NCBI RefSeq assembly: GCF_001007875.1
Contig: NZ_CP011412.1
Coordinates: forward strand, 2,542,001-2,606,000
Origin: Sedimenticola thiotaurini
GTDB lineage: Bacteria; Pseudomonadota; Gammaproteobacteria; Chromatiales; Chromatiaceae
Direction of reading: 5' to 3'
DNA length: 64,000 nucleotides
Below are positions 46,175 through 50,076 of this stretch, piece by piece. How positions within the stretch are numbered: position 1 is the stretch's first letter; each line of letters starts with the position of its first letter. A program made the position numbers and the translations under genes. The notes beneath the pieces are model-generated. The model was not told the DNA's origin and made no database searches. It saw only the letters and a program-made list of their open reading frames with translations.

Positions 46175-46792
46175 ATGAACAGCTTCTACCACCAGGCAAG
46201 ATTCCTCACCAGCGCCGCAAAACTTGAACAGTCCCCGCCCGACACTGGCGCCGAAGTCGCCTTTGCCGGGCGTTCCAATGCCGGCAAATCCAGCGCCATC
46301 AACGCCCTGTGCCAGCAAAAGAGCCTGGCCCGAACCAGCAAAACCCCCGGTCGCACCCAACTGCTCAATTTCTTTGCCCTGGACCCGGAACACCGGCTGG
46401 TGGATCTGCCGGGGTATGGCTACGCCAAGGTGGCAGAGCAGATCAAACGGCAGTGGCAGGCGGAACTGGCCGCCTACCTGGAGCAACGCACATCGCTGCG
46501 GGGGGTGATCCTGCTGGCCGATGCGCGCCATCCCCTGAAGGAGTTTGACCTGCAGATGCTGGAGTGGAGTGGCCAGATCCAGCTACCGGTACACCTGTTG
46601 CTCACCAAGGCAGACAAGCTGAAACGGGGCGCCGCGGCGAAAAGTCTGCAGCAGGTAAAGCAGGCCCTGAAGCAGATCAACGGCATGCACAGCGTACAAC
46701 TCTTTTCCGCCCTCAAACGTCAGGGTATTGATGAAGTCCACGCCGTGCTGGACAAGTGGCTGGAGGTATCGGCCCCAGCCGCCCCGGACTGA
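46175..46792 (+). CDS. engB: Ribosome-biogenesis GTPase EngB (YihA/YsxC)
   Basis: EngB is an essential small GTPase in large-subunit assembly. The 205-residue protein has G1 [10 protein letters not shown]2 within [10 protein letters not shown]3 [10 protein letters not shown] and G4 TKADKLKRG. It converges on polA, the arrangement seen in E. coli, where the small RNA gene spf lies between them. Confidence 0.96.
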
Positions 46793-46913: not shown

Positions 46914-46960
46914 AAAAAAAGACCCTGTCACCCAAGGGGAGTCAAGGTGATCAGGGTCTT
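46914..46960 (-). terminator. Strong leftward terminator after polA/candidate sRNA
   Basis: On the minus strand AAGACCCTG (46960-46952) pairs with CAGGGTCTT (46927-46919), and TCACC pairs with GGTGA inside, leaving a 13-base loop that contains CTCCCC. The stem runs into a T-run that ends at 46914. No T-run exists for the plus strand, so it acts leftward. Confidence 0.9.
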
Positions 46961-47030
46961 AGCGCCCGACTTGGGGTCGTCGGGGACAGGTCACTTGGGG
47001 AGAAGTGACCGCGCCAGCTGGCGCTACTTA
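46914..47030 (-). ncRNA. Candidate small RNA between polA and engB with C-rich loops
   Basis: Downstream of polA on its own strand, four consecutive hairpins occur. The first is GCGCC-AGCT-GGCGC (47024-47011). The second is GGTCACTT-CTCCCC-AAGTGACC (47010-46989), a perfect 8-bp stem. The third is CCCGAC-GACCCCAA-GTCGGG (46984-46965). The fourth is the terminator. Loops two to four all expose CCCC preceded by A or U, which could pair with Shine-Dalgarno sequences. The E. coli sRNA Spot 42 and Pseudomonas ErsA are encoded at this same polA-engB position. No primary sequence match to them is claimed. A separate promoter is weak (TTGAAC at 47060-47055, TATCTC at 47038-47033), so the RNA may instead be cut from the polA mRNA. 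Confidence 0.55.
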
Positions 47031-47079
47031 ATGAGATAGCAGAAATCACCAATAGTTCAATGCCGACAGAAATTTCCGC

Positions 47080-49797
47080 TCAATGCGCTTCATCCCAGTT
47101 ATCCCCGACGCCGATGTCCACCAACAGCGGGACCTCCAGGCTGGCGGCCGACTCCATATAGCCACGAATCCGTTCACAAACCGGCTCCAGTTCCGCCTCC
47201 GCCACTTCGAAAACCAGCTCGTCATGCACCTGCATCACCATTTTCACCGGCGGACGCTCTTTCTCTATCCACCCATCCACCGCCAGCATGGCACGCTTGA
47301 TGATATCTGAAGCGGTACCCTGCATCGGCGCATTGATCGCGGTGCGTTCCGCCGCCGCCTGACGCATCTTGTTCCGGGCATTGATCTCCGGCAGATGCAG
47401 CCGGCGGCCAAACACCGTCTCCACGAACCCCTTGGCATGGGCCTCCTCCCGCATCCGGTCCATGTAGGCCCGCACCCCGGGATAGCGGTCAAAATAGAGA
47501 TCCACGTACTGCTGGGCCGCGGCCCGCTCGATGCCCAGCTGTTTGGCCAGGCCGAATGCGGACATACCGTAGATCAGACCGAAATTGATCGCCTTGGCAG
47601 AGCGCCGCTGATCCGCCGTCACCTGCTCCACACTGTCGACCCCAAATACCTCTGCGGCGGTCGCCTGGTGGATATCCACCCCGGCGGCAAACGCTTTCAG
47701 CAAACCCGCATCACCGGACAAGTGGGCCATGATCCGCAGTTCGATCTGGGAGTAGTCGGCCGCCACGATACGACACCCCGCGTCGGCAATGAATGCCTGG
47801 CGAATACGCCGTCCCTGGTCGCTGCGCACCGGGATGTTCTGCAGATTGGGATCGGACGAACTGAGACGCCCGGTGGCGGCCACCGCCTGATGATAGGAGG
47901 TGTGCACCCGCCCGGTCTCCGGATTAACCATCTGGGGCAGCTTGTCTGTGTAGGTCGACTTCAACTTGGCGCAACCCCGGTGTTCCAGGATCAGGGCCGG
48001 CAGCTCATAGCCCTGCTCGGCCAGCTCCTGCAATACCGACTCCGCCGTGGACGGAGCACCCTTAGGGGTCTTGGCCACCACTGGCAGCTCCAGCTCTTCA
48101 AAAAATATCTGCCCGATCTGCTTGGGGGAACTGAGGTTGAAGCTGCGCCCGGCCACCGCATAGGCCTGCTGCTCGAGCTCATGCATCCGCTTGGCCAGCT
48201 CCTGACTCTGCTGATGCAGCAGCTTCGAATCGATACGTACACCACAACGCTCCATACGGGACAGCACCGGCACCAGGGGAATCTCCAGGCTCTGCAGCAG
48301 ACCGGCCAATTCGCCCTCTGCCTGCAGGGCCGGCCAGAGCGCCTGATGCAGCCGCAGGGTGATCTCCGCATCCTCCGCCGCATAGGGTACCGCTTTCTCC
48401 AACGGCACCTGATCAAAGCGGAGCTGCTTGGCCCCCTTGCCTGCCACATCCTCGTACTTGATAGTCTTCACTCCCAGGTACTTTTGTGCCAACGAATCCA
48501 TATCATGGCGGGTGGCGGTGGAGTCCAGCACGTAGGATTCCAGCATGGTGTCGAAGGCGACTCCCCGCAGGGTAATACCGTAACGGGCCAGCACACTCAT
48601 ATCGTACTTCAGGTTCTGACCGATCTTGCGGCAGTGAGGATCCTCCAGCAGGGGTTTAAGCTGTTCCAGCACCCAGTCCCGCTCCAGCTGTTCAGGCGCA
48701 CCGGGATAACAGTGGGCCACCGGCACATAGGCCGCCTCTCCCGGCTGCAGGGCGAATGAGACGCCGACCAGCTCCGCCTGCATGTAGTCAAGACTGGTGG
48801 TCTCGGTATCGAAGGCGAACTCACCCGCTGCACGTAACCGCTCCAGCCAGGCACTGAAGACCTCCCGGTCTAGCACCTGTTCATAATTTTGCTCCAGGTC
48901 GTCAGCGCTGTTGGATACGGACTCCCCGACGGCCTCCCCGCTCTCCTGCTCCAGCGTGTCCAACAGCCGGCGTGCCTCGATCCGGCTGTACCATTCACGC
49001 AGCGCCGCCAGGTCCGGCTGGGTAGGCTGCAGGTCATCCGGCCCCTGGGCCAGCTCAATATCCAGTTTGATCGTAGTCAGACGACGGGAGAGATCCAGCT
49101 GTTCCAGGTGCTCCCGCAGGTACTCCCCGACTTTGCCCTTGATCTCGTCGGCGTGCGCCTTGATCCCCTCGATGGAACCGTAGGCAGAAAGCCATTTGAC
49201 CGCCGTTTTCGGACCGCATTTGGGGATCCCCGGAATATTGTCCGAGGTGTCACCCACCAGGGCGAGATAATCGATAATCTGCTCCGGCTTAACGCCGAAC
49301 TTGTCCACCACACCCTGGCGATCCAGCCGGCTATCGGTCATGGTGTTGATCAGGGTGACGTGGCCATCCACCAGCTGGGCCAGATCCTTGTCACCGGTGG
49401 AGATCAGGGTCTGCATGCCGGCCCGGGATGCCTGGGTGGCCAGAGTACCGATGACATCATCCGCCTCCACTCCCGGCACGACCAACAGTGGCAATCCCAT
49501 CGCCTCCACGATGCGGTGCAGCGGTTCAATCTGCTCCCGCAGCTCATCCGGCATGGGCGGACGGTTGGCCTTGTACTGGTCATACATCTCGTTTCTGAAG
49601 CTTCCCCCAGGGGCATCGAACACCACCGCCATATGGGTTGGCTGGTACTCAATCATCAGCTTGCGCAGCATATTCACCACCCCGACGATGGCACCGGTTG
49701 CCTCACCACGGGAGTTGGTCAGTGGTGGCAGCGCATGGTAGGCACGGAACAGGTATGAGGAGCCATCGACCAGGATAAACGGGCTTTCTGCAGTCAT
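47080..49797 (-). CDS. polA: DNA polymerase I
   Basis: PolA fills gaps and removes RNA primers during replication and repair. The 905-residue enzyme has three domains: a 5'-3' nuclease (about 1-290, with VEADDVIGTLA and GDKDLAQLV), a proofreading 3'-5' exonuclease (about 320-515, active motif FDTETTSLD) and the polymerase (about 520-905). Polymerase motifs A, B and C are AADYSQIELRI, RRSAKAINFGLIYG and VHDELVFEV. The ATG at 49797 gives the standard start MTAESPFILVDGSSYLFRAY; a longer in-frame reading has no support. It is divergent from the HAD hydrolase gene. Confidence 0.97.
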   Translation of the reverse strand: MTAESPFILVDGSSYLFRAYHALPPLTNSRGEATGAIVGVVNMLRKLMIEYQPTHMAVVFDAPGGSFRNEMYDQYKANRPPMPDELREQIEPLHRIVEAMGLPLLVVPGVEADDVIGTLATQASRAGMQTLISTGDKDLAQLVDGHVTLINTMTDSRLDRQGVVDKFGVKPEQIIDYLALVGDTSDNIPGIPKCGPKTAVKWLSAYGSIEGIKAHADEIKGKVGEYLREHLEQLDLSRRLTTIKLDIELAQGPDDLQPTQPDLAALREWYSRIEARRLLDTLEQESGEAVGESVSNSADDLEQNYEQVLDREVFSAWLERLRAAGEFAFDTETTSLDYMQAELVGVSFALQPGEAAYVPVAHCYPGAPEQLERDWVLEQLKPLLEDPHCRKIGQNLKYDMSVLARYGITLRGVAFDTMLESYVLDSTATRHDMDSLAQKYLGVKTIKYEDVAGKGAKQLRFDQVPLEKAVPYAAEDAEITLRLHQALWPALQAEGELAGLLQSLEIPLVPVLSRMERCGVRIDSKLLHQQSQELAKRMHELEQQAYAVAGRSFNLSSPKQIGQIFFEELELPVVAKTPKGAPSTAESVLQELAEQGYELPALILEHRGCAKLKSTYTDKLPQMVNPETGRVHTSYHQAVAATGRLSSSDPNLQNIPVRSDQGRRIRQAFIADAGCRIVAADYSQIELRIMAHLSGDAGLLKAFAAGVDIHQATAAEVFGVDSVEQVTADQRRSAKAINFGLIYGMSAFGLAKQLGIERAAAQQYVDLYFDRYPGVRAYMDRMREEAHAKGFVETVFGRRLHLPEINARNKMRQAAAERTAINAPMQGTASDIIKRAMLAVDGWIEKERPPVKMVMQVHDELVFEVAEAELEPVCERIRGYMESAASLEVPLLVDIGVGDNWDEAH

Positions 49798-50076
49798 CTT
49801 TTCTCTTCTATTACGGGTCACGACAGTGAAGCCGCAGGATACCCCATCGGGCCCCTGCCCTGATACCCGGAAGCTGTGCAATTCACACCGTCGCAGGACA
49901 TACCGACAGCCAATGGATAAAAAATCACCCATTCCCGGGACAAACCCTATACTTACTTGACACTTGATCCGCCTGCGGGTTTGCCAGATAGTGGCAGTAA
50001 GCGCCTAAGAATAAAAGCTATATAACCATGCTAACCCTGCGTTAATACAGGATCGATAATGAGACAGGGAGGCCGT

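Follow-up and report, generated by a model that had tools for sequence, protein, structure and literature searches.

The gap between polA and engB almost certainly encodes, on the strand of polA, a small regulatory RNA that carries three C-rich loops, although there is no direct proof of a discrete transcript. Judged from sequence comparison, this RNA, sX13, ErsA and anti-hemB look like members of a single, very widespread family that usually stands behind an envelope-stress promoter. The reading that we consider probable as a whole is that of an independent small-RNA gene of ~115 nt, distantly homologous to ErsA and sX13, driven by RpoE and acting as a repressor through its C-loops; its transcription, its sigma-E dependence and its targets are inferred. 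The observations behind it are the structure, its conservation and compensatory changes, a promoter-like motif at a fixed distance, covariance-model kinship and the presence of rpoE and hfq in the genome. The following features lie in the window, i.e. the whole stretch of 64,000 nucleotides that was analysed.

46175 to 46792, plus strand: engB/yihA/ysxC (ribosome-biogenesis GTPase), the convergent neighbour; open reading frame, found by tblastn at the same place in relatives
46914 to 47029, minus strand: predicted small RNA of ~113-116 nt; start at ~47029-47025 inferred from the promoter
46914 to 46960, minus strand: stem-loop 3 and intrinsic terminator, loop UGACUCCCCUU (46944-46934); fold and terminator scan, 10 of 14 pairs changed on both sides in relatives
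46965 to 46984, minus strand: stem-loop 2, 6-bp stem, loop GACCCCAA (46978-46971); fold, 4 of 6 pairs changed on both sides
46989 to 47010, minus strand: stem-loop 1, 8-bp stem, loop CUCCCC (47002-46997); fold, 8 of 8 pairs changed on both sides
47011 to 47024, minus strand: hairpin 0, GCGCC-AGCU-GGCGC; fold, 5 of 5 pairs changed on both sides in relatives
47032 to 47037, minus strand: -10 element ATCTCA, spacer of 15; sequence, ATCTGA in one congener
47053 to 47058, minus strand: -35 element GAACTA of sigma-E (RpoE/AlgU) type; sequence and conservation
47080 to 49932, minus strand: polA (DNA polymerase I), the upstream neighbour on the strand of the small RNA; open reading frame, PolA C-terminus found in relatives

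The hairpins follow the polA stop codon (47082-47080, minus strand) in the direction of polA. The initial annotation had described four consecutive hairpins leftward of this stop, the last of them a strong terminator, and two perfect stems of 6-8 bp. All four are present on the minus strand in sequence and fold, the two stems measure 8 and 6 bp, and the scan recovers an intrinsic terminator whose long stem is followed by a run of seven T (46920-46914). Its description of the loops as C-rich also stands, but the last one counts 11 nt in the fold instead of the 13 bases proposed. The fold of 132 nt reaches -57.2 kcal/mol (z -6.2); dinucleotide shuffles give -35.5 +/- 3.5 kcal/mol, and none of 200 is as low. 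Among 4258 sliding stretches of 132 nt on both strands, this is the sole place in the window with at least two stems of 5 bp or more that carry CCCC loops, and the RNA stretch is single-copy in the 3.96-Mb genome.

From promoter to terminator, a stretch of 153-164 nt is 90-93% identical in five congeners, and a sixth also carries it, truncated by a contig end. Beyond the genus, BLASTN returned only fragments above noise, so that DNA similarity alone was insufficient for the comparison. In 87 of the 96 genomes of the bacterial family the C-terminus of PolA was found, and the DNA behind it was compared. Intact gaps display the same order of elements (GAACTT-N15-GTCATA, a short GACGUC-like hairpin, a CUCCCC stem, an ACCCCA stem and a terminator stem with CUCCCCUU) with quite different stem sequences. 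Thirty-one family members were aligned by ordinary, unguided MAFFT (alignment A1), and RNAalifold yielded 13 consensus pairs, 11 of which are changed on both sides; stem-loop 1 is paired in 86.7% of the cells of the family alignment. The structure of the window scored a covariation of 0.404 on A1, versus 0.224 +/- 0.011 with shuffled partners and at most 0.176 with slid partners. Kinship among the sequences inflates such counts, yet the slid controls retain this kinship and fail.

The loops behave differently from the stems. CCCC or CUCCC occurs in loops 1, 2 and 3 of 84, 68 and 80 of 95 members, respectively, against ~7 expected from composition, and G is nearly absent from them. Conserved loops on freely changing stems are the pattern expected of a loop-based antisense RNA, which is an inference from the comparison.

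The hairpins lie 28-32 nt behind a sigma-E-type promoter, GAACTA-N15-ATCTCA, that is conserved in the genus. Its -35 element is kept as TGAACTA in congeners and as [TG]GAACT[TA] across the wider family. Upstream of rpoE, the genome itself carries GAACTT-N15-GTCAAC and the bacterial family GAACT[TA]-N15-GTCAAT, which serves as an internal yardstick for the motif; the spacer of 15 is common to the window promoter, to the GTCATA of relatives and to the GTCAAT of rpoE. Against our preferred explanation, we count that the promoter of the window is off consensus in both elements (GAACTA, ATCTCA). A standard sigma-70 promoter scan found nothing. RpoE is encoded in the same genome (317 bits for a cut-off of 236), as is hfq. 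As to a sigma-22/AlgU(RpoE)-dependent promoter like that of ErsA, the motif is present with correct spacing and is conserved, and rpoE is there; the dependence itself is only inferred.

This promoter bears on a rival view of the locus, in which the hairpins would merely terminate or stabilise the polA mRNA, or be processed from its 3' end into a small RNA without a promoter of its own. The RNA does run in the direction of polA, starts 50 nt past the stop codon and ends at an intrinsic terminator, and a polA transcript would read through it. However, a single hairpin would be enough for termination, and a promoter-like motif recurs at a fixed distance before the first hairpin. Among 69 matches of the covariance model R1 (described below) that lie outside its training alignment A1, 53 are preceded by GAAC[TC]N-N14-16-[GAT]TC, where dinucleotide shuffles gave 1.9 on average and never more than 9, and the distance from motif to model start is mostly 28-32 nt in these independent matches. 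In several genomes, insertions of 1-5 kb part the RNA from polA and the motif travels along with the RNA; tandem copies also mostly have their own motif. Displaced RNAs and tandem copies with the motif speak against a mere polA terminator, which we regard as quite unlikely. An RNA gene with its own promoter is the reading retained here.

The model R1 was built from A1 alone, without any Pseudomonas or Xanthomonas sequence. It matches the window at 47030-46914 with 100 bits and has one match in the genome; since the window belongs to the training set, this score arises by construction, but the covariation does not. Match and compensatory stem changes together place the window RNA in the polA-locus C-loop RNA family that R1 describes. 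At E <= 0.01, R1 finds this family in 180 of 370 gammaproteobacterial genomes (145 of 273 genera), with polA and/or engB within 1.5 kb in 24 of the 30 best loci. In a set of 80 polA loci of GTDB species (480 kb), gathered by an alignment scan for the PolA C-terminus, in which a Sedimenticola sp. MAG was the nearest named relative by PolA, it gave 25 matches at E < 0.01; every one of them follows polA directly and shares its strand. These comprise 11 of 11 ErsA and 3 of 3 sX13 loci that pass the Rfam cut-offs, and none of the Spot 42 loci called by Rfam. Because a model trained without Pseudomonas and Xanthomonas finds ErsA and sX13, the window RNA is a distant homologue of both and not a mere neighbour. 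The initial annotation had read it as the positional counterpart, with a different sequence and several C-rich loops, of the small RNAs established in this gap (Spot 42, ErsA); a counterpart of ErsA is borne out by conserved stems, loops and promoter, whereas the difference in sequence does not hold in this form, since R1 recognises ErsA and sX13.

Conversely, at least 16 of 23 sub-threshold matches of the ErsA model in the class coincide with R1 matches, as do matches of the anti-hemB model (RF02837), two of them above its threshold. A broader second model of 95 sequences, R2, recovers 8 of 8 over-threshold anti-hemB loci tested, which come from groups missed by R1 and lie outside the R2 training set; several of them adjoin polA or engB. 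Intermediates also exist, such as a locus (L159) that reaches 49.5 bits with RF02232 and a tandem array (in genome G252) whose copies match either RF02232 or RF01719. It could still be argued that C-loop RNAs arose repeatedly in the same gap and that R1 merely sees three C-looped hairpins and a terminator. C-rich loop RNAs are indeed found in unrelated bacteria (RNAIII, Helicobacter, alphaproteobacterial RNAs; PMC3771888), and RF02837 has sub-threshold matches in distant control genomes too. Such convergence seems unlikely to us: it would have to account for the coincidence of synteny, strand, the order in which the four hairpins stand and their spacing from a sigma-E-type promoter, together with an unbroken series of intermediates, and R1 has no significant match away from polA in 480 kb. 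Common descent remains the reading that we favour.

Several loci carry the RNA as tandem arrays of two to four copies (four in L160, G252 C33, and in L165, G345 C8; also L137, L168 and L210), and the copies mostly have their own GAACT...GTCTGA motif.

How the window RNA might act can be proposed from this architecture. The most likely course is that, upon envelope stress, RpoE would initiate at the promoter of the RNA, which lies between the end of polA and hairpin 0, and the transcript would end at its own terminator. The stable stems would hold out the three C-rich loops, which may pair with G-rich stretches near translation starts and repress several mRNAs. This last step, and with it the binding to Shine-Dalgarno regions proposed in the initial annotation and the direction of regulation, is inferred from sX13. 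That RNA represses mRNAs that carry a G-rich motif close to the start codon, with no need for Hfq, and hfq mRNA via GGGG just inside the coding region (PMC3771888). In the genome studied here, the start of hfq reads AUGUCUAAGGGGCAA, with AAGGGG at codons 3-4, and its predicted duplex with loop 3 is the second best (-16.2 kcal/mol) in a ranking that covers 51 translation starts only. As GGGG is present in 16 of these 51 starts, C-loop pairing by itself says little about which mRNAs are targets; hfq is a likely target of the window RNA, as a prediction only. We do not claim rpoE as a target: it has GGGGGA right after AUG, ranks 18 of 51, and the motif is inconstant in congeners. The rpoE leaders of many relatives (L316, L317, L325, L327, L332 and others) display GGGGG at or near the ribosome-binding site. 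The GGGGG and GGGGGA of rpoE are a possible feedback target of C-loops that the duplex ranking does not support.

No Rfam family matches the window at gathering thresholds. Under relaxed conditions, RF02232 (sX13) is the best, with a full-length match (47025-46915) of 27.3 bits, where 50 is required for gathering; its E value is 0.0021 in 371 bases, and in genome-wide searches the locus is the best RF02232 match in its own genome and in three congeners (E 0.002-0.005). RF01719 (ErsA) follows with 16.7 bits for a gathering score of 50 (E 0.68). Since the gathering scores are not met, the window RNA cannot be filed under either family. Extra RF02232 matches in congeners (L013, L014) were set aside as noise without R1 support. 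Elsewhere, the alphaproteobacterial ar14 model gave sub-threshold matches at L101:159-269 and L131:1514-1630 (43.7 and 35.9 bits for a gathering score of 58.8), a possible link to C-rich alphaproteobacterial RNAs.

Spot 42 (spf; RF00021) occupies the same gap in the same direction in enterics and vibrios; it is CRP-controlled and Hfq-dependent and is not known to have a set of C-looped stems. Shared position might suggest that the window RNA is a diverged Spot 42 with the same CRP-linked role in carbon regulation. R2 gives some weight to this idea through weak matches (E 0.03-0.04) behind polA in Edwardsiella (L234:3606-3704, overlapping the Rfam Spot 42) and Klebsiella (L289:3610-3710, at the corresponding distance). 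On the other hand, the window has no covariance match to Spot 42 even at E 10 and R1 misses every Spot 42 locus. The promoter type differs as well, since spf is repressed by CRP-cAMP (reference cited in PMC3771888). We hold this reading to be highly improbable and keep to kinship with ErsA and sX13; a more remote kinship with Spot 42 rests on the two weak R2 matches only.

In the open-access literature, we found no work that unites ErsA, sX13, anti-hemB and Spot 42. On a broader and merely tentative view, which we would not yet count as likely, ErsA, sX13, anti-hemB and the window RNA are one ancient gammaproteobacterial gene (Burkholderiales included). Under RpoE control, it would serve the envelope stress response as a core arm that targets ribosome-binding sites through C-loops; roughly half of the class would have it, with local amplification in tandem, and in enterics and vibrios it would have been reprogrammed into Spot 42. 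As it stands, the family, usually behind a sigma-E-type promoter, is found in at least 145 of the 273 sampled genera of the class, and it would link a virulence RNA of plant pathogens, a biofilm RNA of Pseudomonas and an unexplained RNA of Burkholderia to the response to envelope stress. A further prediction is that sX13 and anti-hemB are under sigma-E control, of which we found no description in the literature.

The anti-hemB RNA (Burkholderia RNA 7, RF02837; ncS04 of B. cenocepacia) shares C-looped hairpins and a terminator with the window RNA, and many over-threshold RF02837 loci in the class adjoin polA or engB. It differs in that its model, which takes its name from a neighbour, covers only ~81 positions; the literature consulted gives it no function. 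In L128, L134 and many loci across the class, RF02837 apparently represents part of this polA/engB RNA family, and the name probably comes from a Burkholderia neighbour.

ErsA (Pseudomon-1, RF01719) resembles the window RNA by the polA-engB gap, the direction of polA and the sigma-E-type promoter, and differs by a longer 5' portion that precedes the R1 match. In the Pseudomonas loci that fit the pattern, the motif lies 67-70 nt upstream, in agreement with the longer 5' part of ErsA and its known sigma-22 dependence (PMC5819304). ErsA reportedly binds through an unstructured region and needs Hfq for several targets; given this mode of binding, members of the family may differ in mechanism.

The RNA sX13, reported by its authors from Xanthomonadaceae only, lies downstream of polA in Xanthomonas and forms three stems with C-rich loops (PMC3771888). 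The window RNA has in common with it the position behind polA, a length of ~115 nt (predicted here), three stable C-loop stems and a terminator. A counterpart of hairpin 0 appears as well when the sX13 locus is folded, and it spans the annotated 5' end. At the sX13 loci L156-L158, L268 and L306, this annotated end falls inside the loop of a hairpin with perfect pairing, for example CGACAAGC-GCAAU-GCUUGUCG, and from species to species the two arms change in concert; the primary transcript of sX13 may start ~10-15 nt further upstream, and what is described as its "unstructured" 5' part may represent one half of hairpin 0. The two RNAs have different stem sequences, the promoter in xanthomonads has diverged further (CGAACC...), and the targets of sX13 are proven, whereas none is for the window RNA. 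Within a family that spans RF02232 and RF01719, the window RNA is a new variant, and the sigma-E-type promoter belongs to it.
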